This document shows positions 25,647-49,024 of a stretch of DNA of 64,000 bases, piece after piece; position 1 is the first letter of the stretch; the number at the start of each line of letters is the position of its first letter. The stretch is from the NCBI RefSeq assembly GCF_003473485.1, contig NC_053047.1, positions 30,614,972 through 30,678,971 of the forward strand, given 5' to 3'. A program made the position numbers and the translations under genes. The DNA is from Medicago truncatula. Its lineage: Eukaryota; Streptophyta; Magnoliopsida; Fabales; Fabaceae. The notes under the pieces were generated by a model that saw nothing but the letters and a program-made list of their open reading frames with translations, searched no databases and was not told the DNA's origin.

Positions 25647-26563
<917 letters not shown>

Positions 26564-27122: not shown

Positions 27123-27543
27123 ATACGATAGGAGGTTTAATTACGGTAACGGAAATTCTACCAATAAAAACATGACACGTGGATAAAGTGTGACCTGTTA
27201 ACCCTTAGTATACGGCACGGTAGAATCTGTTGACTTGCACCGCCTCCACAAGATTCTTACAACCAAGGTTTTCTTTTTGAGTAGTGATATTTGTACATCT
27301 AATTGATGACAATTTTGGTGACAACTTTGATTTGATTTTCTCTCTTCTTAGTCAAAAACAATGGAGAGAGAAAAAGTAAGAGAGGGAATAAGAATCTCAT
27401 GTGAGTATGAGAGTGAAAGTTGTCTAATTGTCACATAATGGTTGTACAAATATCATTTCTCTTTCTTTTTTTCTTTGTTTTTGTGTCATATTTGTCGTAA
27501 GCCGTGTTTGAATACTTCTCAAGAGTATGCAGCTCATTGTAAG
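27123..27543. other. Polyubiquitin promoter region and left flank of the giant element
   Basis: No gene seen. The last nine bases, CATTGTAAG (27535-27543), are the left target duplication of the giant Mutator-like element. Confidence 0.6.
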
Positions 27544-27590
27544 GGTACCGTTTGGTATGGACAAACATACAATTTGTGCACCGTGCACAA
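27544..27590 (+). repeat. Left terminal inverted repeat of the giant element
   Basis: 47 bp from GGTACCG to TGCACAA. It contains the near-perfect palindrome AATTTGTGCA-CCG-TGCACAAATT (extending to 27595), a possible binding site for the transposase. Confidence 0.8.
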
Positions 27591-27820
27591 ATTGTGCATT
27601 TTCAACCTGAAAGCAAATCTGGACCATTGATTTATTATTATTTTATTCGAATGGTCAGGATTTGTTGGAAAAACTGGAAAGGTGACCTGCTGCCATCAAG
27701 TTGTCTTTGTGCAGGCGGGTCCCACGCGTGGATTAAAATTGATTATTTAAATGGTTTTTTTTGGCAATTATTCTAGTGGGCTTTATATTGGGCTTAGCAG
27801 GATCAGGTGCATAACGTAGG

Positions 27821-27903
27821 CACGACCGCGCCAACGTTAAGCACGACCGGGTCGAATAGAACAAGGGTCGAGCACGACCGTGTCGAGGTAGTGCACGACC
27901 GTG
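27821..27903. promoter_or_regulatory. Paired CACGRYCGTG decamers, cluster 1
   Basis: Decamers start at 27821 and 27842, and at 27873 and 27894. Each pair is offset by exactly 21 bp. Located between the left end and the repeat domain. Confidence 0.8.
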
Positions 27904-28199
27904 TGTCGATTTCTATTGGGATTAATGGTATTAGAAAATTCTACAATTTTTCTTAATTCATAATATAAATTAAATATACGATAAATCATATTTATAAATT
28001 AAATATACATTAAATAAAAAAAGAATAAAAATTTAGTAGAAGTTTTTGTTGTAAACTGAGAAAATTTAGTTAATAATTGGATTTTGTTTTATTGTTTTAA
28101 TTAGACTTACATAATTAAATTAAAATGATCATTTTAGATAATCCTCGTTTACATAGATTAATTAATTAATAAATTTAAAATGTCAAGTTTAGGTTATTT

Positions 28200-30160
28200 T
28201 GGTGACGAGAGTGTGATCAGTCGTTTTGAAATCTTTGAATTAGTTTAGGTCAAATAAACTTGTCATTAGGGTTATAGTTGAAGTCTTGGTTAGTCGATAA
28301 AGACTTTGATTAGTCAGTGATCGTTCATCCAATTAGTCTGACTTGAAGATTCTTGAAGTTAAGGCTAGAGTTGTGAGTTTGATCAGTCGTTTTGAGGTCT
28401 TTGAAGTAGTTTAGGTGAAAGAATATTGGAATTAGGGTTAGATTTGTCATTAGGGTGATACTTGTAAGCCTGATTAATCGATAAAGTCTTTGATTAGTCG
28501 TTGGTCGTTCATGAACGTACTTTGACTCCAATATTCTTTAAGTTGGGGTAAGAGTTGCGAGTTTAATCAGTCGTTTTGAAATCTTAGAAGTAGTCTAGGT
28601 CGAAGAATCTTGTCATTAGGGTTAGAGTTACTTGTTTGATCGGACGAACTATCCCGTCATAAACTAGTCAACTTAGTAACTAGTTTACTCGGAGGACCTA
28701 AACGTGCCTATCACCTGAATAGCAACAAGTACAATCAATCCGACCGTTGAAAATGACCTTCTAAGACCTAAAAGGAGATATAAACTTGATATTTCTCATA
28801 TCGAGTTCCGGGAGCTAAGTCGATTGGACGAAGTATCCCGTCATAAACTAGTCAACTTAGTAACTAGTTTACTCGGAGGACCTAAACAGCAACAAGTACA
28901 GTCAATCCGACCGTTGAAAATGACCTTCTAAGACCTAAAAGGAGATATAAACTTGATATTTCTCATATCGAGTTCCGGGAGCTAAGTCGACCGTTCAAAA
29001 TGACCTTCTAAGACCTAAAAGGAGATATAAACTTGATATTTCTCATATCGAGTTCCGGGAGCTAAGTCGATTGGACGAAGTATCCCGTCATAAACTAGTC
29101 AACTTAGTAACTAGTTTACTCAGAGGACCTAAACGTGCCTATGACCTGAACAGCAACAAGTACAATCAATCCGACCGTTCAAAATGACCTTCTAAGACCT
29201 AAAAGGATATATAAACTTGATATTTCTCATATCGAGTTCCGGGAGCTAAGTCGATCGGACGAAGTATCCCGTCATAAACTAGTCAACTTAGTAACTAGTT
29301 TACTTGGAGGAAATAGTTTAAAATGACATCTTGGAAATAGTTTAATCAGTCGTTATGACATCTTGGAAATAGTTTAGGACAAAGAATCATGTCATTAGGT
29401 TGAGAGTTGTTAATTTGATTAGTCGGTGAAAAATTTGATTAGTCATTGAACATTCATCCAAGTACTTTGTCTACAAGATCTTTCAGTTATAGTAAGAGTT
29501 GTGAATTTGATTAGTTGTTATGACATCTTGGAAGTTGTTTATGTTGAAGAATATTGTTATTAGGTTGAGAGCTGTAAGCTTGATTAGTCGGTAAAGAGTT
29601 TGATTAGTCAGTAAAGATATTGATTAGTTGATAAAGAGTTTGATTAGTCATTGAACGTTCCAAGTACTTTCGCTGCAAGATTATTTCAGTTTGATTAGTT
29701 ATTCTAACATCTTTGAAGTAGTTTAGATCATAGAATCTTGTGATTAGGGTTAGATCTGCAAGCTTGTTTTCTCATTGAACGTTCATGCAGGTAGTTTGAC
29801 TCCAATATTCTTTCAGTTAGGTCAAGAATTTTGAGTTTGATTATTCGTTTTGAAATCTTCGAAGTAGTTTAGGTGGAAGAATATTATAATTAGGGTTTAG
29901 GGTTTTTAGTAGATATAGATTTGTAAGGTTAGTTAGTCGATAACAATAGTTTGATTAGTGATTGGATGGTTATCCAAGTACTTTGAATACGTTCATCAAA
30001 GTACTTTGATTCCAATATTCTTTAAGTAAGGGTAACAGTTGTGCATTTGACAAGTCGTTTTGAAATCTTTGGATTAGTTTAGTTATAACAAAATTGTTAT
30101 CAGGGTTATAGATGTAAGCTTGATTAGTCATTAGATAGTTTTATTAGTCACAATTTTAAT
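28200..30160. repeat. Subterminal tandem-repeat domain of the giant element
   Basis: A degenerate ~170-bp unit (phrases such as TTGATTAGTCG and AGTCGTTTTGAAATCTTTGA) is repeated across the region. In the middle (28642-29310) is a much better conserved unit: copies of GGACGAAGTATCCCGTCATA start at about 28642, 28826, 29073 and 29257. Spacing is 184, 247 and 184 bp; the 247-bp step holds an extra partial copy. Each unit contains the inverted repeat AAACTAGT-10-ACTAGTTT. No coding signal. Confidence 0.85.
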
Positions 30161-30368
30161 ATTTTAAGTAAAAAAATATATTTACATCTATCCAATTTCT
30201 ATTCAACCAAACATTCTTTATAAACAAACATAACATATAAACCTTTTTTCCATCAACTACCAAACAAACATTTAATGATCTTATTTCATTCTTTTACATA
30301 AATTTCTTTCCATTTATTTCATCAACCTTATACTTTAACAATCCAAACAGATGAGAAGGGTTAGGGTC

Positions 30369-30377
30369 TATATAAAA
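30369..30377 (+). promoter_or_regulatory. TATA box for the GRF zinc-finger gene
   Basis: TATATAAAA lies about 520 bp before the ATG. A leader exon ending AAC|GTAAGT near 30550 and an acceptor TTATCAG before 30893 imply a 5'-UTR intron. Confidence 0.55.
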
Positions 30378-30897
30378 TACCTCAACCACTTTCCATTTCT
30401 TTCCATTTATTTCATTTACGATTTTGCACCAACCACAACCACTACCAGACCTTCTTCTTCATCTTTCCTGACCTTCTTCTTGAAGCTACTCACGCGAGCT
30501 TCACCAACTTATTCTCTTCATCCGAGGTTCAGCATGTTCTTCTCTTCAACGTAAGTGTACCTTTTAATCATAGTTTCTATAGGTTACAAAAGTTGTTTTT
30601 CAATTTCGATTTGGGTGATTCTTCGATTTCAATTTCACTTTCAATTTCAATTACATAAGTTTACTTTGAATATATGTTGTTGATCTGGTGTCAATTGAAT
30701 TTTTTCCTTAACCGAAATCTAAACAAAAGGGTAAATTTTCTAAATTGCAGTTTATTTTAATGTGTTGTTTTGTAATGAATCTGGGGTTTGATAATGAAGT
30801 TCTTTAATTTTAATTATAATAGTTATTTCTGAAATTGAATTATTTTTGAGATGGTTTGTTATGCCGATAACTGAAAATGTGATTTTATCAGTGAACC

Positions 30898-31560
30898 ATG
30901 AATGGATCAAAGGCCTCATCAAGCAACAAAGGTGGTTGGATTAGATATTCCAAGAAGTTTTGCTTCTGTCGAAATGTAGCTGTTATTAAGGTCGCAATGA
31001 CTGAGGAAAATCGTAATCGGTTGTTTTACCGTTGCAAGCACGAGAAACCAGAAGAAAATTGTGGATTTTTTCTATGGTGTGAACCTATTGGATGTGAAAC
31101 AGAAACTACACAAAAGGTGGATAGTAGAATGATGGAGATTGATGATGAATTGCATGGTGCACTAGCTGATCAAGCTTTGAAGTTTGATGCTATGAAGAAA
31201 GAACTTGAAGGTAAGTTGGCTGAGATGAAAAAAGTAATGGAGGAAGAGATCGACACTGTGAAGAAGGAATTTGGGGTGGAGATTTTAAAAATGAGTAAAA
31301 TCTTAGAAGCTCAAGTGCATTTGGCCGACGAGGAAAACAAATAAAATTTGCTTGAAGTGAAAAAAAATGTGGATCTGGAAATTGCCATTTGTAAGAAGAT
31401 TGTCATGGAGGAGTTGTTTTTAGTAAAAGAAAGTCTAGATGATGAGGTATCTTTGCTGAAGGAAGAGGTAGGATGGTCAAATAGTTCATTGTGGAAGCTG
31501 AAATTGGTTGTGCTCATGATGTTGTTCATGCTTGGTTGGCTGGTATTCCTTAAAACTTGA
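30898..31560 (+). pseudogene. GRF-type zinc-finger protein with coiled coil and C-terminal membrane segment, split by an in-frame TAA
   Basis: The ATG at 30898 opens a frame to a TAA at 31342-31344 (148 residues). The same frame then stays open to 31560. The N-terminal part has a GRF zinc finger (FCFCRNVAVIKV, then LFYRCKHE and CGFFLWCEP). This is followed by a Glu/Lys-rich coiled coil (EGKLAEMKKVMEEEI) that continues after the stop (LEVKKNVDLEIAICKK). It ends in a hydrophobic helix (LVVLMMLFMLGWLVFL), the usual plant layout of GRF finger, coiled coil and membrane anchor. The TAA therefore cuts a 220-codon gene. GRF fingers bind single-stranded nucleic acid in other proteins; the role here is unknown. 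A decamer cluster lies just downstream. Confidence 0.75.
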
Positions 31561-31616
31561 GAAGAATTATTTGGTTCATGTTGTTCTGAAGATGGAATGG
31601 GAGAAGGGAAGTGAAA

Positions 31617-31723
31617 CACGGTCGTGTCTATATTATGCACGATCGTGTGTGTATTCAGAACAAAAAGAAGGATTGAAGCCAGTGAATTTGCGCACGACCG
31701 TGTCATAATAAAACACGGTCGTG
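31617..31723. promoter_or_regulatory. Paired CACGRYCGTG decamers, cluster 2
   Basis: Decamers start at 31617 and 31638, and at 31693 and 31714; both offsets are 21 bp. The pairs are 76 bp apart. The second pair is preceded by CCAGTGAAT and followed by TTCAGG, as in cluster 5. Confidence 0.85.
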
Positions 31724-32690
31724 CGTGATGTTCAGGTCAATTTATTTGTACTTTCTTCCGTATTTAGTTTAGGTTTTTAGTTAGTTAAGTATGTTTAATC
31801 TTGTATTTGATTATGTTTAATGGAGGTTAAGGAATTATCCAACTATATATGAATTATTTTATGTTGCAAGGCTGTCAAACAAATTTAAGCTATGAAAATA
31901 AAAGTTTTAGAGGGAACTCTTTTGTCTGCTGGATAATTGCTTTGCTATCAGATTTGTACACTTTACTAGCTAGCTGTGATGGGGGTTGAGTGTTTTGGTT
32001 GATTTTTTAGCAAAATTAACAGCTAGTAACAGCTATGCCAGTTGTGGTGATTTTTTTCTAAATTAATATAAATGTTGTACCATAAGCAAAAGAAGAGAAG
32101 ACTAATTGATTGTTTTAATTAAAAAAATAAACAAATTTCTGTCTTAATATAAGAGTAAAAAATAAAGAAATAAAATAACAGACAAGTTATTCAAAAATAT
32201 TAAAAAATTAGTAGACTGTAATAGAGAAGAAAGTTTTATTTTACAATTTGTTTGATAAATTGTCTTGCATAGAGAAGAAATTTCTTACATAATAATCATG
32301 CTTTCAATTGTATTTTGTAGAGAAAATTCATGTGACATTTTAATCCTGCTATCATCTTACAATCGTTATAAATGCTGGAGTGCACATGAAGAGAATGGAT
32401 TCGGGGATGGCCGCGGAAATCTTATAAGAAGTCAAATTTTCGTTCCCAATGGAAAAAATAGGTATGACACCGTTAACCACCTTTTTTTTGTTTTTATGTT
32501 ACAATGTCATGATTTATTTATGTAATTTTTGGAAAATATTAGCACCATATTTATTTAAAAATCAAGTTATGTCCTGATTCCTGATTATTGGTTGTATACA
32601 ATTTTAAAATAAATATACAATTATTAACAATTTGGACCAATTGGAGATTGACACCAATATTATAAATTAATAAAGATAAAACTTTCCCTA
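31724..32690. other. Spacer between GRF and ULP1-like genes
   Basis: AT-rich sequence with no supported gene. The frame at 32265-32525 has no domain. The last part is the ULP1-like gene's promoter. Confidence 0.5.
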
Positions 32691-32820
32691 AATAGTTTCA
32701 ATCACACCTTTTGAGACTTGAGTGTAAGAAATTACTCTACCATTTTCTTTGTAAACTCTATCAGCAAGTACCCTTTTGTTTGAAAGAAAGATTACTCTCT
32801 CAAAAACTTGAACACCTACA

Positions 32821-35800
32821 ATGGAAGAAAATGGTCATGCACTCAACCCTCAACAAATAGGAACACCTTCTGCTCTGCCGTGAGTTAACTTATTTTTTCA
32901 TATTATTTGTGTATTTTGCTGTTGCTATGCGTGAATAAGTGTAGTGTGATAGATATGATTTTTTTTTTCTTCAAGATTTTTAGTATTTTGATGAAGTGAA
33001 ACTATAATGAAAAAAATAAATGAACTTTTAGGTATTTAGGTATTTGAAGTTCAAAGAAACTTTCAAGTTTTGAGCTTTTGTTTGATGATGTCATGTTTGA
33101 AGTTTCATGTTTAGGGGTGACGTTTTTACTTAAACTTTTTAGTATATTGATGAAGTTTTAGAAATTTGAAAAAAGATATAAACTTTTTAGTATATGGATG
33201 AAGTTTTAGATATTTGAAAAAAGAAATAAACTTTTTGGTATATGGATGAAGTTTTAGATATTGATGAAGTGAGATGTTGTTGTAATGATTTTTTTACTTC
33301 ATGTTTGTTGATGATTTTTTCACTACAACTTTCAAGTGTTGTTGATGATATAGATATGATTTGTTTTTTAACTTTTTAATTGATAACAACTATTTCATGA
33401 AAGAGATGACAACTATATAGAAGTGGAAGATGTCACTTCTGGATGTATTGCCAACAAGGAAGTTGTTGGTGCTTATAAAGAACCAACTATTCAAGATGTC
33501 ATGGAAGAGATGACCTCCTTGAAAGTCCTGCTCATCGAAGTGTCGAAGAAACAAGATACACTTGAAACGGTATAACATTTTGTTATTGTGACTTCCTTTC
33601 TCGTGACTATTACTACATTCCTAACGTATTTACGGGATAACAGGGATTAACGATGGACTTCAACTTATTGAGGACCAACATTGCTTCGATTCAAACCTCT
33701 ATTGAGGTATTTGAAATGTTAGCAAATTCTAAATGTTTTTGTAATATTCGTGGTTCATCAACAAGCTGTGAAGAGGAAGAATTTAAGGAACCACCTGTGC
33801 CAACCGAACAAGAACGGTTTGCGAAGGAGTTAGCTGAATTAGGGTTGAGTCGTGAAACTGAGAAAGTTGGTGAATCTTTCGGCAAATATATTCATCAAGG
33901 TTTTGTTCGTGATAAATCTGCCGAGGGAACATCTAAAGAAGTAGTGTTTAATGGTAGGAGCAGTAGTGTCTTTGGTGGAATGGAAACTTTTGACAATCAT
34001 GATGTTGATGTCAACTTTTCAAAGACTAATTTTTCAAACAGTGTGGGAAAAGCTTTCGTACCAGACCATTGGCTCGAGGAAGAGACAACGCCGAAAGGCA
34101 GGACTAGCGGTAAACAAAGTTTTCTCATCACAAAGAGCGACTACAAAAGAAAGCCTCAACATTTTAGCCAAACTGCACCATCTACGGTTCCAGAAAGTGG
34201 TGTTCACAAGAGATTGAAATTTCACACCCCTTCGGCGACACTAAAGCCAACACAAAGTAATTCTTCGAAAAAGAGCGCCAAACTTCGTCAATCGGCGAAG
34301 AAATTAAAAGGACAGCGGGAAGAAGCTACTCCAAGAAGTGCTAGGATGAAAGGTGGGGTTACACCCAAGGTAAAAATAAATAATATTCAACTAATGCTGT
34401 TGTTGATTATGTAAGATGATAACTATATATGACTGGTGTTTTGCATGCGTATAACAATCCATGGTTTACACTGCAGGGAAAGGAAATTGCTCTTGACACC
34501 AAGAATGTTGCTCTTGACGAAAGAACAAAACGAGCTCTTAGGAATGCACATGTTTGCTCCTTCCTTTTTCAAAAATCATCCGAAGTTAATTTGATTAACG
34601 AGACACTTGTGTTGACGATGAGTCTAGCATCTACAAGGTCTGAACTTCAATGTCTCCTCCCTGATGTACATATAACTGAATTGGTAAGAACGCAGATTAC
34701 CTTGAATTTGAGTTTGAGTTATTTTGGGAACATTAGGTAAACTTACAAAATGTATACATTGCAAGGTCATTGCATTGGCAGCGGCAAGAGTAACATGTAG
34801 ACACACCTTGAGGCAGTCTGTTTGGTGCCTCCCACCATCATTTGCGGTTTGCCTATAGTTTCTCTACTATAGTGTTAAATTTTTTATAAGTTATTTAAAA
34901 AGCAAAGTAGTAGCATAATATGGGATATTATTTTGTTTACAAATAGTTTGATTTCGAGGATGGATTATCGTTACCACACATAAGAGCGAAGTACCGTGGT
35001 GACTGGATGGCCCCTTTCGCTAAAGTGCAGTTTGTAAGTATACAAATCAAAATTTTTAAAAGATTACTCGTTGTCAATCTATAACCACTGTGACATCTTG
35101 TATTACAGATATATATCCCATTGAGGGGTGCGGAGGGTCATTGGTTTTCGATGGTGGTACATGTTCCAAGCGGAATAACGTATCACCTTGATTCTAACTG
35201 TCCAGCTGGACTAACCGAGGAGCAACGACATTACAAGATTAGAAGAATGGTAAATAACATATAAACTATTTTAAATAGATACTTGCTATTATTCGAAAAC
35301 ATTGACATTGAAGTCCACTTTATATTAGGGATTGTTGTTACATCGCCTTGTGGATTGTGATGAATACTCCACGATCTTTCCCAAGAAGAGTCAAGAGTTT
35401 GAAAAGTTTGAAATTGTCCGGCCTAATTTAATGATCGATGGCTGTAGTAGGTAAGATATTGTAATTTTTAAAATTAATGAATCAATTAGTGTGCTTCTGT
35501 TGTGCGATATAATATAGTTGTTATCACTGCAGCAGTGAAAACTCCGGAGTATGGGTGTTGCACTGGCTAAGTATGGAACATTATTATAGACCGGAAAATT
35601 TTCTTAGGATCGTAAGTTTTATAAAATATAATAATTATATATCATTATTTGGTCTAAACTAATTCCACATTCCATCTTTATGTCAATCTTTTTACTAAGC
35701 ACTTTATTTGTAGATGGACGTAAAATCTGTGCGGCTGAACACTGCGGCTGAACTGTTGATTGGGGATGAAAATTCCCTCCGCTATGAAGTTCAGAAAAAG

Positions 35801-35860
35801 ACCGATGAATTTTTGAAGGCCAGGAATGAGAAGAAACCCATTGATCTGGATACCGATTAA
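32821..35860 (+). CDS. ULP1-like (C48) protease family protein, ten exons, catalytic Cys replaced by Ser
   Basis: Ten exons with GT/AG borders join in frame: 32821-32879, 33404-33569, 33644-34369, 34477-34683, 34766-34846, 34947-35033, 35109-35249, 35329-35450, 35533-35611 and 35714-35860 (1,815 nt, 604 residues). The N-terminal half is basic and low in complexity. The C-terminal half resembles the SUMO-protease fold: [13 protein letters not shown] gives the His, YHLDSNC gives the Asp, and [11 protein letters not shown] lies where the Cys-Gly box (DCG) should be. The codon TCC (Ser) replaces Cys, so cleavage of SUMO is not expected unless Ser can act. Plant MULEs of the Kaonashi type carry such genes. 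The 5' region is duplicated at 43880-44130. The frame is otherwise intact. Confidence 0.8.
33130..33262 (+). repeat. ~55-bp tandem repeat in intron 1 of the ULP1-like gene
   Basis: Three imperfect copies containing TATGGATGAAGTTTTAGA and AAACTTTTTAGTATAT. Confidence 0.65.
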
Positions 35861-36280
35861 TGGTTGTGTGTAGCTAATCTATCTCATCTCCAATCCAACC
35901 ATTTTTTTGGAGTCAATTGTGTGTTCTGATACGAAGATGAGACAAGATTTTTTGGTTTTGGGTGCCATCATATATTTTGTTTTGGCTAAAGGGCCCATAT
36001 ATTTTGTTGTTCTGTATTATTGTAATATGATTCATGAACAAAAATCATGTTACTCATGAACAAGATTTAGTGTTACTGTGGAACAATTAATTAATATTTC
36101 ATATTTTTATGTCCGAAAATTCACCTCACGTTTAATGTACATTTGATTGAAAAGTAAAAAATTGAAAACGATCGAATGAATACGACAGACTGTGCCTAAA
36201 TATTAAAATTAATTTATTTACTAAATAAACTAATGTCTTATAATACCAAAATAGACCAAGGAAATATAAACTAATGTCCA
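35861..36280. other. 3' flank of the ULP1-like gene
   Basis: No coding signal. Convergent with the transposase gene. Confidence 0.5.
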
Positions 36281-36418
36281 CACAACCATGTTATGCTTAC
36301 ACACGACCGGGCGTTGCAAATTCAACATCTACTCAGGACCAGTTTCTTTACACACGACTACGCGTTTTAGATTCCAGTGTATTTTCACACGATCGTGTCA
36401 TTCATGCACACGACCGTG
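36281..36418. promoter_or_regulatory. Paired CACGRYCGTG decamers, cluster 3
   Basis: Pairs at 36281 (degenerate CACAACCATG) and 36302, and at 36388 and 36409, with 21-bp offsets. A lone degenerate site at 36353 lies 72 bp after 36281, matching the usual pair-to-pair period. Confidence 0.8.
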
Positions 36419-36714
36419 CGTGTTATAATTTTAAAAATGACAACTTTTGAGTTTCATGGAACTCAAACAAGAACACACACAACAACATACTTCAAACTTC
36501 GTTCTCCTCCATCGCTTATCACTTTTAATTTAAGTCATCCTACATTGTCAAAAAATATTAAATTAGTTTAAAACATTGATACGATTATTGACATTTCAAA
36601 ATAATACAATAACACTTTAATACATACCATAGGAACGTTCCAGTCATCGTTATTATGATCATAAAATTCCTCCTCATGATTGGAAGTTGAAGAATGAGTT
36701 TCTTGGTTACGGAA

Positions 36715-36777
36715 CCGACATGACACGCGGTTGTGTCCCTTTCCGCCACATATTCCACATTTAGGCGTACTCCGTTT
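36715..36777 (-). pseudogene. CCHC zinc knuckle stranded after the transposase stop
   Basis: In frame with the transposase, directly after TAA, the minus strand encodes TPKCGICGGKGHNRVSCRF (C-X2-C-X4-H-X4-C). It would be part of the protein if the TAA were a sense codon such as CAA. Confidence 0.75.
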
Positions 36778-39143: not shown

Positions 39144-39801
39144 TTTGATGTTCCTAATGCATACATAAATTGAATTAGACACAATCACTTGGATAGCCAA
39201 ACACGGAATGAAAATAAGGTTGGGTATACTATTACAAGGACTTCAGGTATGAAACCTAAGACTAGTATTCAACAGCAATACTTCATCATATCTACCAAGC
39301 TTATACATACCTTCAACTATAAAGATTTAATAAATGAACCAACAACTTTAATAAATGTAGATCTAGAAACCAAACTAAGTTGCAATCTCCAAAATGTAAT
39401 GAAATGTGAAATAAAATTGAACAATGTTGTTGAGGAAGCTGAAATTTAACTTAATGTTTAGGTTGATGGTGACTAACAATTTCTGAAAATTTGTACTTCA
39501 ATAGAGGGTGTTGTATGTTAATGGTACTTCAATGTGAGATGAAGTGAAGGAAGGAGGGAGAAAAGGAGACTAAAGTGTTGGGTGAATAACTTAATTAGAA
39601 ATAAAATCTGAAAATGAATTAAATTATATGAGAAATTGAATAAATGATGAATGTTTAAATATAAAATATAAAATATGTTTTGTTGTTGTAATATAATAAT
39701 AATAATATTTATTTATATTGTAAGTCAACGATGAATATACCGTTGATATTGAAATAAGAAAATATTAGATTTAATTTTATCAGGAAATTAATAATTTCGT
39801 A
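39144..39801. other. Upstream region of the transposase gene
   Basis: No gene supported; the frame at 39189-39449 (+) is in the presumed promoter/leader and has no domain. Confidence 0.5.
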
Positions 39802-40112
39802 GGGAACTTCAACGGTACACCCACAATTTTGAGTGTACCGGTACTCTTGTTGCACAAAATTTATAAATTAACGATCACTTTAATGAAATAAAAAAGTATC
39901 TTAGTTATCAATATTCATTGTTATGAGTAATAAAAATTCTTAAAAATTTATTTTTATTTCGTCAAAGATTTTGGTAAATAAAATTTAATTATCTTAGTTG
40001 TCAATGATAGAAAATTTATTATTTTTCTTCAAAAAAACAACTGAATTATTATTAATTTTACAACTTGGTGTACCGATACACCCAAATTCATTGGTGTACC
40101 ATAGAATTTGCC
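39802..40112. mobile_element. Mutator-like MITE nested in the giant element (311 bp)
   Basis: Ends read inwards GGGAACTTCAACGGTACACC and GGCAAATTCTATGGTACACC. Flanks AATTTCGTA (39793-39801) and AATTTTGTA (40113-40121) are a 9-bp duplication with one change. Non-coding. Confidence 0.75.
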
Positions 40113-40180
40113 AATTTTGTATTGTACTGAATGAAATAAGTATTTTGTTAATTATTTTTAAAAGGAAGGATTTGTAGTAA

Positions 40181-40433
40181 CACGACCGTGCTATGGTTTG
40201 AAAAGGTCGTGCTTAAAGTGTGTTATTCATGGGTTTGTAGTATAATTGATGTCGCACGACCGTGCTATTAGTTGAAACGGTCGTGCCGTAACTTACTGGA
40301 ATTTGTTATGTAAATGTCTTTTTAAAAACCCACGCCCCTGCATGTTAAACGCACGGTCGTGTGTATCTATCAGGTAGGGTTTTTTCCTGTATTGGTTACG
40401 TGCACGGTCGTGCGTGAATTTGGCACGGTCGTG
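40181..40433. promoter_or_regulatory. Paired CACGRYCGTG decamers, cluster 4 (four pairs)
   Basis: Pairs start at 40181/40202, 40255/40276, 40331/40352 and 40403/40424. All four offsets are 21 bp, and pair-to-pair spacing is 74, 76 and 72 bp. Some members are degenerate (CACGCCCCTG at 40331). Lies between the transposase promoter side and the 3' end of the next gene. Confidence 0.88.
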
Positions 40434-40658
40434 CATTTTCTGGCATTATCCAGTTTCAACAACCATCATTAGTACAAAAAAAAACAATGTGTTATGTTAG
40501 CATGCAAACAAGTTAAAGATCAAATATAATTTACACCATAATTATAATCGGATCATTGTTCATAACATACCCTATGGAAATTTGAAAAGCTCTTAAAGGA
40601 GTACATTCAAAATGCAGCCAAAACAAAGCAATAAACTTGAATAGGTGTAACTTTATTA

Positions 40659-41864
40659 TCATGGACTAGGGGGGGGGGGGGGGGGGGGGGGATATTGGAT
40701 GTTGAGTTGTCGCATTGTTGCTGCAAGCATATGTTTGACGAGTGCAACCTCCTCATACGTTCTGTCAACCTTCGCCTCCATCCTTTGACGCCAATCATTG
40801 TCATCTTTTGAACCCTCCGTTGGTTGTTTATCCTCCCGGTAATCACCCATTTCTTCGTCTTTGGCAGGCCCCTCTTTAGGTACCCGGGAATCTAAATCTA
40901 TATAAAGCCAATTTTCCGGAATTGTTACGTCAGTTCTCGATGTATCTGGCAACAAGATTGAATCTTCACCGAATACCAACAATATAAAATTCATATTGTT
41001 CCCATCTAGATCCCTTACCATATGTATCTGTTTACAGAAATCAATATCAATGGTATAGTTTCCATCAATTCCAATTTCATGTGTTGCACTTCTTGCTCGC
41101 AGCTTCCAAGCTATGAAACTTACCAACCCCTCCGCCACTATCTTACCTTTGGGTTGTTCCGCCACATATGTCAGATGGTCTAATAAGTAATAGGCCGTGT
41201 TTACAGGACATTTATGAACCATAGCCCATAGAAGGAATAGCTCATCAGACCTCACTGTTGCAGTTTCCGGCCTACCGAAAATGGTGCATGCCATTACTCT
41301 ATGCAAGTATCGGAAAACTGGGTTTTGTATCATGCTGGCCTTGGCAGTTTTACATTCATAACGTTTTCGGCCTGTTATTTGAAACAAAAACCCATGTTTG
41401 TCATATCCTCGGTGCATGGCATCATGGTTACGGGATACATGAATGACCCCCGTGCTTTCAAATCCCATTATGTCACTAAATTCGGTGAGGGACATGTTGT
41501 ATTCCACGTTGCCGAAACTAAATGAAACAGTGTGGTTTGGGTGTGTGGTATTGTGTGTATCATGATTAAAATTGACTGTACTCAAAAATTCAAATGTACT
41601 CGTTTCGAAGGTGAAGTGCGTCTCCCCCACGAAATATTTCCAGCCAATGTTACTAATTAATGTTGTGACATTGTCGTCTATACCCAATGCCTGTAAAGCT
41701 GTTGAATCGGGATACCTATTTGGTACAATGTCTCTGTTCAAAAGCATTTTGTACCTTTCCCTCTCAGATTTGTTTAGAATAAGTCCCCTCTCATTTAGTT
41801 TACCCTGTTTCTTCGTTCCGCAAGAAGTGCCGCCAACATGAACACCCTTTCCCTTAGAAGCCAT
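40659..41864 (-). CDS. ORF1-like 'plant transposon protein', copy A (401 aa)
   Basis: A single exon of 401 residues. After a basic N-terminus come SERERYKMLLNRDIVPNRYP, a central domain with VSFSFGNVEYNMSLTEFSDI, and the highly conserved-looking block AKASMIQNPVFRYLHRVMAC, then RSDELFLLWAMVHKCPVNT. This resembles the family named from the ORF1 of Athila retrotransposons and related 'putative plant transposon protein' domains. Its biochemical role is unknown. The C-terminus has a short coiled coil (WRQRMEAKVDRTYEEV) and ends in polyproline encoded by a 23-base G run on the plus strand (40669-40691). A paralogue lies at 46100-47437. No lesion is seen. The family link is from memory and moderate. 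Confidence 0.75.
   Translation of the reverse strand: MASKGKGVHVGGTSCGTKKQGKLNERGLILNKSERERYKMLLNRDIVPNRYPDSTALQALGIDDNVTTLISNIGWKYFVGETHFTFETSTFEFLSTVNFNHDTHNTTHPNHTVSFSFGNVEYNMSLTEFSDIMGFESTGVIHVSRNHDAMHRGYDKHGFLFQITGRKRYECKTAKASMIQNPVFRYLHRVMACTIFGRPETATVRSDELFLLWAMVHKCPVNTAYYLLDHLTYVAEQPKGKIVAEGLVSFIAWKLRARSATHEIGIDGNYTIDIDFCKQIHMVRDLDGNNMNFILLVFGEDSILLPDTSRTDVTIPENWLYIDLDSRVPKEGPAKDEEMGDYREDKQPTEGSKDDNDWRQRMEAKVDRTYEEVALVKHMLAATMRQLNIQYPPPPPPPPSP
40669..40691 (+). repeat. G23 homopolymer at the 3' end of the ORF1-like gene
   Basis: 23 consecutive G on the plus strand encode prolines near the C-terminus of copy A. Its length sets the reading frame of the last residues and is prone to slippage. 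Confidence 0.9.
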
Positions 41865-42649
41865 TTTTCAAAATTTCTCTTCCTGTTGAAAACAAAAAAA
41901 ATGAAATTACTAGTTAAATTCTAAAGGGTAGTAGTAACAATTTTCATGGATTAATTATACAAATATATTAGTATTAGTAACAACAATTAAAAACCCACTT
42001 ATATTTTGACTATGGTAAAGGTTATGGGTTCATTTACATACTAACACAAGATTGATAAGCAACCAAAAAAACCAAAATAGTGGTATTTTACATTTCCTAA
42101 TAGCAATTAAGGAGAAGCCCCTTTTCCATTTAACAAACATGCAGGACAAAGAACACCCAACAAATCAGACATTCATTCATACTCTTAAGAATAACTATAA
42201 CAAAAATAAGCCAACAATCATTATGAATATAATAATTTAGCTATTTCAACATTCAATAAATAGCATCCAAATGCATGCATGAAATTAAGTAAAAGAGATA
42301 GAAGAAATGGAGGTTAATTACCTTATACTTAGTGTAGATCTGGACAGGTTGAGAATGCTAGTGCTAGTGCTTCGATGAAGAAGAAGAATGAAGTAGAATA
42401 ACAAGAAGGTTGAGAATAATGAACACGTGAAAATGATTTGGGGGAAAAGGTGTGGTTTTGTGTGTTGTTGAGAAATCATTAATGATATAATGATTAGAAC
42501 ATTAATGATTAAAAGATTTAATTATTTTGTTATAAATGATTATATTAAATGAGATTAGGTATGATTAAAAATGAACTTAATTAAGTTTAAATATAAAGGA
42601 TTCTTATTCAATAATTTCATTTATAATGTTAAATGTTATAAATGAAATT
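41865..42649. other. 5' region of ORF1-like copy A
   Basis: Leader and promoter region on the minus strand. No other gene seen. Confidence 0.5.
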
Positions 42650-42658
42650 AATATTAAA

Positions 42659-42803
42659 GGGATTTGCTAGAACACACCCAACCGTTTTTATGTAGGAGTA
42701 TTTTAGCAAGTTATAACTAAAAAGTTAATAAATACACCTTAAGGTGTATGTTGCTATAACACACCTTCTAACAAAAACAAGTGGGTGTGTTCTACCAAAC
42801 CCC
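42659..42803. mobile_element. Mutator-like MITE nested in the giant element (145 bp)
   Basis: Ends read inwards GGGATTTGCTAGAACACACC and GGGGTTTGGTAGAACACACC. Perfect 9-bp duplications AATATTAAA lie at 42650-42658 and 42804-42812. Non-coding. Confidence 0.88.
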
Positions 42804-42835
42804 AATATTAAATGATGCCATAGTAAAAGTTATAT

Positions 42836-43320
42836 ACAGGTGAAGTTGAAAAATTATCGAACGCGCCCCATGTGGCTAATTGGTAAAGAATGTGTCCTTA
42901 GGAGGTGGAGGGTTTGGGTTTGATTCCCACCATCGAAAACCCCTCCTTTTTTTTTGTTATTCTTTTTCATTTTGACAGGATGTCTCCTTTTTTAAGGATA
43001 TAGACAGGTGAAGTTGAAAACTTAACGAACGCGCCCTATGTGGCTAATTGGTAATGAATATGTCCTTAGGAGGTGGAGGGGTTGGGTTCGATTCCCACCA
43101 TCGAAAACCCCTCCTTTTTTTTTTTGTTATTCTTTTTCATTTTGACAGGATGTCTCCTTTTGTAAGGATATACACAGGTGAAGTTGAAAACTTAATGAAC
43201 GCGCCCCATGTAGCTAATTGGTAACGAATATGTCCTTAGGAGGTGGAGGGGTTGGGTTCGATTCCCACGACCAAAAACCTTTTTTTTTTATTCTTTTTTA
43301 TTTTCGCAGGAATTCTCATT
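42836..43320 (+). repeat. Three tandem tRNA-like Pol III cassettes (~169-bp period)
   Basis: Units begin ACAGGTGAAGTTGAAAA at 42836, 43004 and 43174. Each has a tRNA-like stretch starting GCGCCCC or GCGCCCT (42863, 43031, 43201), with A box TGGCTAATTGGT (TAGC in unit 3) and B box GGTTTGATTCC or GGTTCGATTCC. A run of 9 to 11 T follows about 20 nt downstream, as in a Pol III terminator. A related single unit lies at 45539-45623. They look like tRNA-derived, possibly transcribed units rather than a working tRNA. Confidence 0.7.
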
Positions 43321-43341
43321 TTGGGGACCATTGATGTTTGG

Positions 43342-43447
43342 CACGGTCGTGTCATTTTAATGCACGGTCGTGTTTAATAACCAGGAGTTATAATGTTTGA
43401 TTCCAGTGAATATATGCACGATCGTGTCATATGAACGCACGACCGTG
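43342..43447. promoter_or_regulatory. Paired CACGRYCGTG decamers, cluster 5
   Basis: Pairs at 43342/43363 and 43417/43438, both offset by 21 bp and 75 bp apart. The second pair is preceded by CCAGTGAAT and followed by TTTCAGG, as in cluster 2. Confidence 0.88.
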
Positions 43448-43586
43448 CATAAATTTCAGGACAATGTTTTTTTATTTTTTTTGTTTATCTAAAGTTTTTA
43501 ATATATATTACCAATGACAATAGGACAACACATGTGGGGTACTGTTTGTTAAAAAATTGGTTGAGTGAGGGACCATCCAATTTAGG

Positions 43587-43800
43587 GAATCTCTGAGATT
43601 GAAGTTGAAAGACATATGCATGCCAACATGAAAAGCATTCAAAAAGCAAATGAATGTGAATCTCTGAGATTGAACTTGAAAGACATATGCATGCCAACAT
43701 CAAAAGCATTCAAAAAGCAAATGAATGTGAATCTCTGAGATTGAAGTTGAAAGACACATGCATGCCAACATGAAAAGTATTCAAAAAGCAAATGAATGTG
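43587..43800 (+). repeat. 71-bp tandem repeat, three copies
   Basis: GAATCTCTGAGATTGAA starts at 43587, 43658 and 43729. Copies are nearly identical, so the array is recent. The minus-strand frame across it is an artefact. Confidence 0.9.
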
Positions 43801-43879
43801 CTATCCAATCAATAAAAACCTTTAACCTATATTATAAAGTAACAATTTATTTATGTCATTTTGGAAAATAGTAGTACAA

Positions 43880-44130
43880 TATTTCTATAAATAGTTTCAA
43901 TCACACCCTTTGAGACTTTAGTGGAAGAAAATACTCTACCCAAAATACTTTCTCTCTAAACTCTATAAGCAGTACTCCCTTTTTTTTGAAGGAAAGAATA
44001 CTCTCTCAAAAACTTGAACACCTACAAACTCTACAAGGTGTGAATAAGTTTAGTGTGATAGATATGATTTTCTTTTTCCTTCAACATTTTTAGTATTTTG
44101 ATGAAGTGAAACGTATAATGAAAAAAACAA
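43880..44130 (+). repeat. Duplicate of the ULP1-like gene's promoter/leader
   Basis: Matches 32690-33010: shared TAGTTTCAATCACACC, ACTCTCTCAAAAACTTGAAC and TAGTGTGATAGATATGAT. The copy has a TATA box CTATAAATAG (43886-43895) but lacks the first coding exon. It precedes the foldback locus. Confidence 0.8.
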
Positions 44131-44398
44131 ATAAACTTTAAGAAGACTAATTTTTTTAGGATAGATGTTAGTTTTACATGTTATAATTAATTTTTAGGAT
44201 AGATGTTAGTTTTAGAGTAGATTTACATGACTAATTTTTTATTTTATTTTAGTAAGAAGACTATATCATTTATAATTTTAGAGTTATTTTTATGAATTTA
44301 AGAGTCAATGTATTACGTGCACATCAAGTGTTTGACGAAATGTTTGAATAAGTTTTTTATTGATTGTTTTTTGTTTCTTATTGTGTAGATTTAAAACA

Positions 44399-44488
44399 AT
44401 GGCCGGGTGGATCAACGTTCATACGCAATTCAACGGGGGAGAAGCTCAGAGACACAACGATGGTGGAACACGTTTGGTATGCGGGTGA
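44399..44488 (+). CDS. Short open frame (29 aa) upstream of the foldbacks
   Basis: After an acceptor-like TTATTGTGTAG, ATG at 44399 opens MAGWINVHTQFNGGEAQRH and runs to the TGA at 44486-44488. It could be the 5' exon remnant of a larger gene or a small frame in a non-coding transcript. No domain is recognised. Confidence 0.3.
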   Translation: MAGWINVHTQFNGGEAQRHNDGGTRLVCG

Positions 44489-44560
44489 AGTTGCTTAGAT
44501 CAACTTAAGATATCATCAAAAGTTTGATTCCGCCATAAAATCGTCATTAGTTAGGGTAAG

Positions 44561-44891
44561 GTGCATTCCAACTACAACAATTGTCTTCCTTTGAATGGGG
44601 TAATTCAAACTTGTCAAACAACAGGACTCGAGCATTTCGCAAGCACCTCATGTTTCTCCTTTGAAAATATCAAATTCTTGTTATGCTGGTTTAGATGAAG
44701 GTATTAAGTGTCAAGGATTGAACCTCAATTCGGTGGCACTTGAATACCATCATCTAAAGCAAGCCTAACAAAAATTTATTCTTTTCAAAGGGAAAACATG
44801 AAGTGCTTGGCGAAGTGCTTGAGTCCTGTTGTTTTCCAAGTTTGAATTTATCCCATTCAAAGGTAACACAATTGTTGTGGTTGAAATGCAC
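44561..44891 (+). ncRNA. Long imperfect RNA foldback 1 (miRNA/hairpin-siRNA precursor-like)
   Basis: The left arm from GTGCATTCCAACTACAACAA to GCAAGCACCTCATGTTT pairs with the right arm AAACATGAAGTGCTT to GTTGAAATGCAC. The centre also pairs: GTTTAGATGAAGGTATTAAG with CTTGAATACCATCATCTAAA. The pairing spans about 330 nt with scattered mismatches, like a young plant MIR precursor or hairpin RNA. The minus strand would fold similarly; the plus strand is preferred because a TATA box and leader lie upstream. The mature small RNA cannot be named from sequence. Confidence 0.6.
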
Positions 44892-45125
44892 ATTCCAACT
44901 GCAACAATTGTCTTACGCTGGATGGGGCAATTCAAACTTGCTAATCAGCAGGACCCCAATATTCGATCAGCATCTTGAACGTTGATATTCAAGTGTCAAG
45001 GAATGCACCTCATTCTTTTGACACTTGAATACCACCGTTCAAGATCCTGATCGAATACTGGAGTCCTGCTGCTTAGCAAGTTTGAATTTGCCCAGTGGTA
45101 AGATGATTGTTGCAGTTGAAATGTA
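44889..45125 (+). ncRNA. Long imperfect RNA foldback 2, tandem paralogue of foldback 1
   Basis: The left arm CATTCCAACTGCAACAATTG ... TATTCAAGTGTCAA pairs with the right arm TTGACACTTGAATACCACC ... TTGTTGCAGTTGAAATG over about 110 nt at roughly 85%. The outer and inner arms match those of foldback 1, and the two hairpins abut end to end. A tandem duplication of a hairpin precursor is the simplest reading. Confidence 0.62.
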
Positions 45126-45344
45126 AATTTCGGAATATAATGTAATGTCTAATGCAATGTAATGTGATAACATATATTTTGTTTTCAATGGAACAATAAT
45201 TATCTTATTTATTCACTTTTCAAATTTAAGGACAATGCCAAATGTGGGAACAACAATTCTCTAACTTTAATATCAATTGAAGGACAATGCCTGCTTGAAG
45301 GTGTTGTTGGGAGTGTTAACATGGATATTTATGGTGAAACCTTG

Positions 45345-45375
45345 CATGACCGTGTTAATATGCAACACGATCGTG
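45345..45375. promoter_or_regulatory. Paired CACGRYCGTG decamers, cluster 6a
   Basis: Decamers at 45345 (CATGACCGTG) and 45366, offset 21 bp. Confidence 0.8.
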
Positions 45376-45538
45376 CACTGCTTATTTTTTCAAAACAATG
45401 TATTATAGGTTAATGTCAATTCGTTTTTGTGACGAAAAACTACTCATTTACTCTATTAGACTAAAAGAAGAAGAAAAAAAAAATTAAAAAACGGCCTAAT
45501 AAGTAATATATACATGTGAACTTAATTACTTATCGAAC

Positions 45539-45623
45539 GCGCCCCATGTGGCTTATTGGTTAAGAATGTGTGCTTGCGAGGTGGAGGGTTTGGGTTCAAT
45601 TCCTAGATCCAACACTTTTTTTT
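45539..45623 (+). repeat. Single tRNA-like Pol III cassette
   Basis: GCGCCCCATGTGGCTTATTGG with B-box-like GGTTCAATTCC, followed by an eight-T run. Related to the three tandem units at 42836-43320 but more diverged. Confidence 0.6.
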
Positions 45624-45644
45624 TAAAATATCATTCAATAATGA

Positions 45645-45675
45645 CACGACCGTGTCATTAACGAACACGGTCGTG
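45645..45675. promoter_or_regulatory. Paired CACGRYCGTG decamers, cluster 6b
   Basis: Decamers at 45645 and 45666, offset 21 bp, about 425 bp before the ATG of ORF1-like copy B. Confidence 0.85.
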
Positions 45676-46099
45676 CTCGATGTTACTTTATCAGTTCCCA
45701 CCCAAACCGCTCTTCATTCAAACAAACACTCTTTCAAATTCTCTCAAAACCTAAACCTCCATTAACCTATCAATCAACTTATTTCCCAACCCAATCTCAG
45801 TTTTTACTTCTCAAAACTTCAATAAATCTTAACAAAAACAACATCAACCACCAAGTTTGCCACATTCATTTCCAAACCTCCACAAAACTCATCCAATCAT
45901 CATATAAATTCCCAAATTCGTGTGGTCAAAAAACCTAACTCAAAACCAACGAAATTGAAGATTAAACAAGACCCAAACACAAATCCTCATCCCCAAACAC
46001 TAAACCCAACATAAATTCACCTTTCCACAACCAAAATTTAAGGTCAAAACCCAACAATCTTCAAAACCCATATTTTGTACCCTTTTGAGAATTTAAAAA

Positions 46100-47437
46100 A
46101 TGGCGAGCAAGAGAAAAGAAGGTGTTGATGACGCTTCATCTGATTTAAAGAGGAAAAAAGTTGTTGATGATGCTGGCTCTTCGGACGGAAGGAAGAAGAA
46201 GGGTAAGACTAATGAGCTTGGGATTATCCTCAAGAAATCGGAGGAAAGGGAGAGGTACAACAAACTCGCTGCAAGGGGAATTGCATTCAGCAGGTATCCC
46301 GATAAAACAACGTTAAATACATTAGGTATGATAGAAAATGTTAGACTTCTGGCTAAAAACATAGGATTGGAGAGATTATTAGAGCATATGCACTCCACAT
46401 ATATACACACTACCCTAGAATTCCTTAGTACGTTGTGTTTTACCAAAGATAAATTGAATATCGATGAACCACAACACACTGTGTCATTTAGCTTGAATAA
46501 CATAGAGTTTAGCATGACCCTACCTGAGTTTAACGAACGGATGGGTTTCCCAGCCACGGGATTCATCCAAGATTCTCGTAACCTAAATACTAGGCCTGAT
46601 AATTATGACTCTGATGAATTTTGGCTTAAAATCTCTGGGAGGACAAAATTTGTGGCTAGATCTGCTAAAGCTAGTTCAATCCACAACCCTGTTTTCCGCT
46701 ACATTCACAGGGTTATGGCTTGCAGCTTATTTGGTCGGAAGGAAACGGTTACAGTTAGGACCGATGAACTTTTCTTTTTATGGGCTATGGTTAACAAGTG
46801 TCAGGTAGACACGGGATACTATCTTTTAAGCCATATGGCATATGTTACAACACAGGAGGCTGGTCTTATTGTGGTCGGGGGGCCAATCGATTACATTGTA
46901 AGGAAGTTAGGAATAAAATATTATTCTGACCAACCTCCAATGAAGGATTACAAGGGAATTGAGATTGAGACACTAATTCAGATGAAAATGATTAAGGATG
47001 TAAGTGGCGGGAGGAGAGAATAATTTCAATTGAGGGTTGATAAACAAGACGCGTTTCTATTGCCAAATCCAGAGAGGACCGACACATCCAATCCAGCAAA
47101 TTGGATTTATTCTGATTTAGATCCAGAAGTTGCAGAAGAGCAGCATCTTGAAGACGACGCACCGGCTGCTGACCAAGTGGAACATCAACCACACCCGGTG
47201 GTTCAAGATGACCAGGAATGGCGTACAAGGATAGAGGCTGAGGTTCAAGCGACAAGGTCCGATTTTCAAGAGATGAGACTATGGCAGCAAAGGCAGGTTC
47301 AAGATGACCAAGAGTGGCGTGCAAGGATGATGACTAAGGTTGAAGGTACAAGGTCTGATGTTCAACAGATCAGGCAGGAACAGCAAAGGCAAGGATGTAT
47401 TCTTGACCTAATGATGCAGCGCCTTAACATTGATTAA
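46100..47437 (+). pseudogene. ORF1-like 'plant transposon protein', copy B, interrupted by one in-frame TAA
   Basis: The ATG at 46100 opens 307 codons to a TAA at 47021-47023. The same frame continues without further stop to 47437. Blocks match copy A: ERERYNKLAARGIAFSRYPD, VSFSLNNIEFSMTLPEFNER, AKASSIHNPVFRYIHRVMAC and RTDELFFLWAMVNKCQVDT. After the stop, LLPNPERTDTSNPANWIYSD matches LLPDTSRTDVTIPENWLYID of copy A, so the stop lies inside the conserved body. Without it the protein would have 445 residues, with a longer C-terminal coiled coil (two DDQEWR repeats) than copy A. It could be dead, or read through. Confidence 0.78.
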
Positions 47438-47900
47438 CCAACCTCCCGGTGGATTGTAATGATGGGAGATATAGGCTATTGCTTCTTGGATCTGTTTGGT
47501 TTGGCAACAATCGTGTCTTTCTTTTATTTAATTTAACGTCTACTCTAAAACTGTTTTGTTGGTTTCAATTTGAAAATGCTCTTGCGAGAGTTGTAATAGT
47601 AATGCACTTTTAACAAAGTACTCTTTTATTTCTATATAATTTGGTTTAAGTTTCACTGTGAACAATGCTTTTGTAATATTAATTACAATGTTACCTATCT
47701 ATCTATGTGTGTGGGTTCGTAATTTAATTGGTAATGTATGAGATTACATATAAAGCTTTGCCGTTGTCATAATCTATGATTGTGTTGGTTTACTATTCTA
47801 AACAATTCATACTTGTTTGTGATATATAATGGAAGTAAACATGAATCATTTAATATTGTGTTACAACTAGATCATGTTCAAGCTTCAAATGTGTGTAAAG
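47438..47900. other. 3' flank of ORF1-like copy B
   Basis: No further gene seen. Confidence 0.5.
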
Positions 47901-47907
47901 CAGTCAG

Positions 47908-48264
47908 CACGATCGTGCCAATGTTACACACGGTCGTGCAACATCCACTTCAACTGAAAATATGTGCCAGTGCATACTGACACGATCGTGTTAAACAAAG
48001 CATGACCGTGCTTCCATATGACCAACAATTTTTCTTAAATCAGTATTATCAGCACGACCGTGCTTATAATACACACGATCGTGCTATGTATGCAGTTCAA
48101 AATCTATCTCATAAAAACTACCCTAAACCATCCATATTTACTTCCATTATGACAAGCACAACCGTGTCAATATTAAGCACGACCGTGTTCGTGATAAAAA
48201 CTTTAAAACCAACAAATCACCAGTGAGTTTAGGCACGGTCGTGCAATAAATAAGCACGACCGTC
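47908..48264. promoter_or_regulatory. Paired CACGRYCGTG decamers, cluster 7 (five pairs)
   Basis: Pairs start at 47908/47929, 47981/48001, 48053/48074, 48157/48178 and 48234/48255. Offsets are 21, 20, 21, 21 and 21 bp. Pair-to-pair spacing is 73, 72, 104 and 77 bp. This is the richest cluster and lies about 0.7 kb from the right end of the element. Confidence 0.88.
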
Positions 48265-48908
48265 CACTATACCAGAAAATAAAAAAAAATCAACAAATCA
48301 CCATTGTTGGCTTCTTACTCACTTTCATTTACCAAAAACTTACTAAGACAATAATAATTTATTCTTTCGGTTATGCTATCTAACACTCTTTTATTAGTCA
48401 ACAACAATACTATACAACACCCAACCATATAGCATAATAAAACATTTAAAATGATAAACTAAATTTTATTCATACCTTTAAAACGTAAATGAATCAAGAT
48501 CTATAAACCAAACTAAGCAGAAAACTCCAGATCAATAAACGAGACTGAAATAATGTTGAACAATTTTGTTAATGAAGAAGAACTTTAAGTTAAGCACAAA
48601 GGAGAAAGGATGTCTGGAAATGTCAAAAATTTGGGTGGCTATGGAGATGAAGAAGAATGTTAAGCATGAAGGAGAAGGGAAACAAAGCTAAAAATGATAT
48701 ATTCTGGTGTGTCACTAGTGAAAAGAGTTGAATTACTACTCTCCATGTTTCAATTTTAGTAGGGGGTGTACAAGTTATTGCTGATAACTAGTTGTTTTTT
48801 AGGGGGGTGTGAGCAACAGAAACAATAAATGAATATTTTACAATATAATATGTTTCATTAAAATAATCCAGCAGGTAAATTACCGTCAGCTGTCCTTCCA
48901 TGGGAAAA
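48265..48908. other. Right subterminal region of the giant element
   Basis: No gene or clear repeat seen between the last decamer cluster and the right terminal repeat. Confidence 0.5.
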
Positions 48909-48955: not shown

Positions 48956-49024
48956 CATTGTAAGAAGCTTACTAGCTTTAATTAAGTAGAGATATGACTT
49001 TGTTAAGGATGTCATTTTTTATAT

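Follow-up and report, generated by a model that had tools for sequence, protein, structure and literature searches.

The 64,000-nucleotide stretch of Medicago truncatula DNA analysed here (NCBI RefSeq assembly GCF_003473485.1, contig NC_053047.1, positions 30,614,972 to 30,678,971 of the forward strand; hereafter the window, numbered from its first letter) contains a giant Mutator-like element (MULE) of 21.4 kb, whose non-coding parts hold an array of paired palindromic decamers, CACG-RY-CGTG, locked at a start-to-start distance of 21 bp. Terminal inverted repeats together with a target duplication of 8-11 bp are the hallmark of MULEs. Both are found here, the duplication being 8 bp long, and the element encodes a MULE-type transposase (PF10551, PF03101). 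The arms of the terminal inverted repeats are 51 nucleotides long and 75% complementary, and homology with the C3 copy of the element spans positions 27542 to 48955. The element also carries two genes of the ATHILA ORF-1 family (ORF, open reading frame), both of whose proteins score well above the curated cut-off of PF03078 (20.2 bits). The element, its ends and its long frames are located as follows.

27535..27542, target-site duplication CATTGTAA, left copy, 8 bp, read in the flanks
27543..48955, giant MULE, 21.4 kb, delimited by the terminal inverted repeat arms, the 8-bp target duplication and the homology limits
27543..27593, + strand, left terminal inverted repeat arm, CACGRYCGTG absent (inverted-repeat search and motif scan)
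33641..34411, + strand, lysine-rich open frame of 257 amino acids without Pfam match
36781..38997, - strand, transposase with FAR1 DNA-binding domain, MULE domain and SWIM zinc finger (Pfam PF03101, PF10551, PF04434)
40662..41867, - strand, ORF1-like gene 1, open frame of 402 amino acids, ATHILA ORF-1 family (PF03078, 87.8 bits)
46097..47020, + strand, ORF1-like gene 2, open frame of 308 amino acids, ATHILA ORF-1 family (PF03078, 88 bits)
48906..48956, - strand, right terminal inverted repeat arm, CACGRYCGTG absent; the last base possibly belongs to the target duplication
48956..48963, target-site duplication CATTGTAA, right copy, 8 bp, read in the flanks

The decamer pairs, given by the starts of their two members, lie at the following positions.

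27821..27903, pairs 27821/27842 (both members degenerate, 9 of 10) and 27873/27894, near the left end
31617..31723, pairs 31617/31638 and 31693/31714
36281..36418, pairs 36281/36302 (degenerate) and 36388/36409, downstream of the transposase ORF
40181..40433, four pairs, 40181/40202, 40255/40276, 40331/40352 and 40403/40424, about 1.2-1.4 kb upstream of the transposase ORF
43342..43447, pairs 43342/43363 and 43417/43438, about 1.5 kb upstream of ORF1-like gene 1
45345..45675, pairs 45345/45366 and 45645/45666, about 0.45-0.75 kb upstream of ORF1-like gene 2
47908..48264, five pairs, 47908/47929, 47981/48001 (20 bp), 48053/48074, 48157/48178 and 48234/48255, near the right end

A preliminary description of this DNA had listed about 19 such pairs, and all 19 starts are present, 18 pairs having the 21-bp distance and one (47981/48001) a distance of 20 bp that recurs in the copies L005 and L007. 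Both members are exact in ten pairs, and in the other nine one or both are degenerate (8 or 9 of 10) and keep the register, as had also been stated. The neighbour distances of 72-77 bp given there hold for 8 of the 11 pair-to-pair distances below 130 bp; the remaining three are 52, 104 and 107 bp. A post hoc look at helical phasing of these 11 distances (R 0.55, p ~0.04 at 10.5 bp) gave a result too weak for use.

The exact decamer occurs 27 times in the window, always inside the MULE and with a centre of AC, GT or AT, whereas in 200 Markov-1 simulations, which kept the dinucleotide composition of the window, decamers averaged 0.025 per run, never exceeded one and formed no pair. With one mismatch allowed, the count rises to 35 decamers, all from 27821 to 48255. 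When offsets of 10-40 bp on either side of the decamers were scanned, -21 and +21 scored 6.0 and 5.8 of 10, the next best offset 3.6 and the average 2.8. The palindrome gains one base on its inner sides, with all 18 of the 11-bp spacers starting with T or C and all 18 ending with A or G. None of the 38 decamers lies within the four long ORFs, which cover 5,130 of the 21,413 bp, in agreement with the earlier statement that the sites sit between genes.

The pair is not a private feature of this element. A search of 430 Mb of the genome for two exact decamers with a fixed gap of 11 nucleotides, which the preliminary description had called for, returned 134 places, including other copies of the element, against none for a reversed-pattern control; when all gaps from 0 to 30 were allowed, the number rose only to 174, of which 134 are those at gap 11. 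The claimed confinement to the element is thus correct for the window (27 of 27 decamers), but genome-wide pairs are also found in unrelated retrotransposons. The carriers of the exact pair comprise MULE relatives, one Ty3/gypsy family with sites within its long terminal repeats (LTRs), and other repeats. Double decamers of the same-direction type CACGACCGTG occur at 61 places. This one LTR family accounts for 30 of them; MULE genes lie no more than 25 kb away from another 19, and the remaining 12 are elsewhere. The LTR family (L018/L022) encodes protease, reverse transcriptase, RNase H and integrase; we take it to be a Tekay-type chromovirus, an assignment that Pfam does not show. Each LTR of L022 contains two exact pairs and one extra single decamer, and elsewhere in the family the distances from pair to pair and from site to site are 32-33 and 53 bp. 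Each of the 17 further loci examined has sequence in common with a known carrier or with another locus of the sample: two (L033, L039) are MULE relatives, and eight (L001, L019, L020, L028, L029, L036, L037 and L040) are joined by similarity to L019, a block of which matches both LTRs of L041, an Athila-type element. At C7:10430932-10431238 (G000) three pairs with an identical spacer stand 138 bp apart, near a MULE-type ORF1-like gene at C7:10427018, an arrangement suggestive of a site cluster that has recently expanded in tandem.

Athila-type elements carry a variant pair, CACGGCCCGTG-N10-CACGGCCGTG, found at 1,754 places genome-wide at one gap; gaps of 0-30 together gave 1,781 places, 1,754 of them sharing that gap, and the control gave none. 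These places were assigned to elements by sample only, and the sampled pairs lie either about 0.4-0.56 kb upstream of Athila ORF1 genes or near LTR sequence. In eight 771-bp stretches upstream of Athila ORF1 matches, hand-picked from the list of ORF1 matches, at least one variant pair is present in seven and two pairs in five, the two pairs being 75-76 bp apart and three of these five stretches having one mismatch in one decamer. On part of contig C1, among the matches listed, an exact variant pair stands 400-560 bp upstream at 7 of 10 ORF1 places, and no pair was found within 700 bp downstream of the 10. Within the Athila alignment, site columns are conserved at 93%, compared with 82% for the rest, and only 12 of 665 shifted masks score as high; the figure refers to eight alignable sequences, all site-bearing, with L044 and L052 left out as unalignable. 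L043 shows the arrangement, with a gag frame followed by an ORF1 gene (PF03078), two 21-bp pairs of CACGGCCCGTG/CACGGCCGTG lying 76 bp apart upstream of ORF1, and one more pair downstream adjoining LTR-like sequence. In L041, with 74% identity to L043 in gag, neither an ORF1 match nor an internal site was found, and the only sites are those of its two LTRs. No pol was seen among the long frames read in L043 (281-3729) and L041, which therefore represent types with gag and ORF1 or with gag alone, perhaps non-autonomous families.

Methylated CpGs decay fast in transposons, and each decamer contains two CpGs. Across seven groups of other copies, 158 of 167 window CpGs inside sites are kept, compared with 66 of 99 within 150 bp of the sites and 240 of 338 in other non-coding DNA (together 306 of 437); the count omits L025 and CpGs gapped in the copy, and all CpG and substitution comparisons omit alignments below 80 bp and the duplicate loci L003/L004. 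A symmetric form of the test gave 158 of 177 versus 321 of 597, and three diverged MULEs in which ORF1 was not seen keep 25 of 28 CpGs in sites and 13 of 37 outside. The copy comparisons are not independent, and P values from them are indicative only. Retention of CpGs inside the sites fits a site that is beneficial to the transposon, which seems to keep it for its own benefit. The pattern would look the same if the sites locally lacked methylation, which would likewise suit an anti-silencing role.

Among MULE relatives, those with transposases about 70-80% identical carry the sites (L014 and L025, 77%; L012, in pieces of 68-82%), as a cluster just upstream of the transposase in L012 and L014 and as exact decamers with degenerate partners in L025. 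Sites are also present in L033, which has 72-79% DNA identity to other MULEs; in the 2.5 kb of it that were read, no ORF1 was seen. Two relatives with transposases 62-65% identical have no pair in about 6 kb each, and a search of them for other over-represented words or palindromes gave none that was convincing. A plasmid search with the transposase gene gave no match. Within this MULE clade, the sites may predate the ORF1-like genes; alternatively, the small members may have lost ORF1.

The two ORF1-like proteins of the MULE are 48% identical to each other and 36-44% identical to the two Athila proteins compared. ORF1-like 1 of the C5 copy and ORF1-like 2 of the window differ with a ratio of nonsynonymous to synonymous substitution (dN/dS) of 0.30 at dS 1.40 over 285 codons, and to judge from such comparisons the genes look to be under constraint. 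The frame of ORF1-like gene 2 reaches 440-449 amino acids at five other places in the genome, and 310 and 379 amino acids at two. On inspection the proteins have an N-terminus rich in lysine and arginine and, by eye, a coiled-coil-like C-terminal stretch; a PDB sequence search with ORF1-like protein 1 gave no credible match. In a study of sunflower, an Athila ORF1 protein is predicted to be nuclear, and the Athila ORF1 or 3' additional ORF (PF03078, PF20167) is described as a retrotransposon gene without known function (PMC11728184).

Several other features of the locus were noticed. A different imperfect palindrome, about TTTGTGCACCRTGCACAA, occurs in both terminal repeats (27543-27600 and 48906-48955) and may be a transposase site. 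The 257-amino-acid frame at 33641-34411 is perhaps a piece of an unidentified cargo gene. Within the element, a 170-bp unit is repeated in tandem in 2.7 copies (42831-43279), and resembling units also recur in other element copies; tRNA-like promoter boxes, TGGCTAATTGGT ... GGTTCGATTCC, were seen in it by eye, Rfam and ARAGORN made no call on the tandem units, and Rfam at gathering thresholds found no match in the whole window. The insertion site is gene-rich, with two near-alike HSP20-type genes, one on each side of the element (24369-24908 and 50955-51464, Pfam having been run on the first only), a ubiquitin-repeat frame recognised by eye (25982-26563) and a DEAH-type helicase (54613-57369, Pfam).

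We propose that the pairs are candidate protein-binding sites. Each decamer is a dyad, as would suit a dimer, and two decamers set two helix turns apart would present the same helix face, so that the dimer-binding array with two-turn spacing suggested in the preliminary description appears to be supported. The sites would be kept in non-coding regions to activate the transcription units of the element or to shield them from silencing. Similar paired sites in unrelated transposon classes suggest one shared protein serving them, and the likeliest binder would be an ATHILA ORF1-type nuclear protein made by the transposons themselves, for which the MULE has two genes and the Athila-type retrotransposons one; the basic N-terminus, the coiled-coil look and the predicted nuclear location of the sunflower protein favour this candidate. 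The proposal further draws on the single spacing with empty controls, the location outside the long ORFs, the place of the pairs ahead of sampled Athila ORF1 genes, the similar pair-to-pair distances in Athila (75-76 bp) and the MULE (mostly 72-77 bp), L041 with neither ORF1 nor internal sites, the kept CpGs and conserved site columns, and the dN/dS of 0.30. Free riders on the ORF1-type protein would then include the MULEs that showed no ORF1 as well as the Ty3/gypsy family, whose sites are in its LTRs. The reading we prefer, and hold to be somewhat short of probable, is that the array consists of promoter or anti-silencing sites bound by dimers, with an ORF1-type protein as the leading candidate binder. 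The wider proposition is more tentative still, namely that ATHILA ORF1 might be a sequence-specific activator or anti-silencing protein that binds paired palindromes, and that the MULE may have acquired both gene and site array, one circuit serving class I and class II elements. If it is true that ORF1 binds the pair, a function would be gained for a large protein family, along with a regulatory circuit that spans transposon classes. The 2010 study that described clustered palindromes in plant retrotransposons named no binder (PMC2829016), and the literature available gives no function for the ORF1 and envelope-like genes of such elements; here palindromes and ORF1 occur together, the sites being upstream of ORF1 in sampled Athila-type elements and the MULE having both.

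A number of observations weigh against this proposal. Carriers without a visible ORF1 exist (L012 and L014, where 20 kb searched around each gave no ORF1 match at 1e-20, and the Ty3/gypsy L018/L022), so that ORF1 is not needed in cis. Conversely, L044 and L052 carry ORF1 but no site; their upstream DNA aligns with no others, and a search of both for alternative palindrome pairs found none. The sites may accompany ORF1 for no other reason than that the gene has a promoter of its own. The centre of the site differs, being RY in the MULE and GC(C) in Athila. Between close copies dN/dS of ORF1-like 2 is 0.32-0.71, and in one 135-codon piece it is 2.1, a value that hangs on one synonymous change. 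Counted overall, substitutions in the closest copy (C5) are no rarer in the decamers than in the flanks (9 of 250 versus 22 of 926). Finally, the spacers are more alike than shuffled ones (0.46 versus 0.37, with 0 of 200 shuffles as high), and part of the 21-bp register may therefore be inherited by duplication.

The strongest alternative is that a host transcription factor binds the pairs, and that unrelated transposons independently kept or gained them as promoter elements. The carriers lacking a visible ORF1 fit this explanation, as does the placement of sites in LTRs and upstream of genes, and the Sirevirus study compares palindromes of that group with known plant regulatory sites and proposes stress regulation (PMC2829016). 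On the other hand, the 17 further loci, a small sample, gave no sign of use in a single-copy host gene. To our knowledge no plant factor site matches the strict pairing, which also counts against a host factor. We regard the explanation as possible rather than convincing, a host factor being nearly as likely a binder as an ORF1-type protein.

The preliminary description had inferred binding by the MULE transposase through its FAR1 domain; the pairs would then serve as subterminal or internal sites. The element does encode a FAR1-domain transposase, FHY3/FAR1 sites contain CACG, and the presence of sites in the closer MULE relatives and their absence from the 62-65% ones would agree with such binding. 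Yet within 200 bp of either end no match exceeds 6 of 10, some 280 and 690 bp separate the ends of the element from the nearest decamers, and the sites are spread across the whole 21 kb. Many of the sampled sites, moreover, are in retrotransposons (the 30 of 61 in Ty3/gypsy LTRs and the Athila variant), and such carriers do not use a MULE transposase. Because the element ends lack the site, and with two relatives devoid of the pair in about 6 kb each, transposase binding finds little support and we consider it unlikely. The FHY3 site, CACGCGC, has a single occurrence in the window and was discarded as an explanation.

A neutral origin, in which one ancestral repeat spread by local duplication and the pairs have no function, would account for the likeness of the spacers and for the 53-bp units of the Ty3/gypsy LTR, which look like duplicates; it is disfavoured by CpG retention, by the conserved columns and by a single spacing across unrelated elements, and we judge it very improbable. 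Least credible of all is a host silencing factor that recognises the pairs and recruits methylation. The CpG richness of the sites and, as far as sampled, their occurrence in repeats speak for it, but transposons retain these CpGs against decay, whereas a harmful site would not be expected to be kept.

Among open-licence papers, judged from the listings, no literature on this motif in plants was found, and for the exact decamers no title among the matches listed was that of a plant-transposon paper. Two known systems are nonetheless similar. Sireviruses (Ty1/copia) have clustered CpG-rich palindromes, termed RM, in their LTRs, for which a 2010 study suggests a regulatory role, its authors having identified no common binder; in members with an envelope-like gene RM also occur upstream of that gene, in 77 of 79 linker copies (PMC2829016). 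The sites described here are likewise CpG-rich dyad motifs in many copies, located in LTRs and upstream of a gene. They differ from RM, as far as the source describes them, in that the decamers come as pairs with a fixed distance of 21 bp, and in that one sequence is common to several unrelated element types, the identified carriers being a MULE, a Ty3/gypsy-type element and ORF1-bearing Athila-type elements instead of Ty1/copia. The CGG-CCG core of Sirevirus is present in the Athila variant and absent from the 27 exact MULE decamers.

The second system is VANDAL, an Arabidopsis MULE group not known to have terminal inverted repeats, whose VANC proteins carry DUF1985. The present MULE has terminal inverted repeats, and its genes match ATHILA ORF-1 instead of DUF1985, which is absent from the matches (E up to 10) of the two ORF1-like proteins and one Athila ORF1, the other exons of the element being incompletely searched. 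VANC proteins are reported to bind short clustered non-coding motifs and to cause loss of methylation (PMC5735166, PMC10398659), and AT9TSD1, an element of another kind, has VANC6 motifs too (PMC5735166). Short motif clusters in the non-coding DNA of a multi-gene MULE, with motifs also in unrelated elements, are common to both cases, although the VANC motifs given there (YAGTATTAY; AGTTGTCC/AC) are not CACG palindromes. In VANDAL the binder is a transposon-encoded accessory protein whose binding and demethylation have been shown; here such a protein is a candidate binder. The Athila ORF1 family (PF03078), for its part, is described in the literature available as a retrotransposon gene, and two genes of the family are found here within a DNA transposon. 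By the tests made, the paired decamers and their giant MULE resemble both the Sirevirus RM and the VANDAL/VANC system while belonging to neither.

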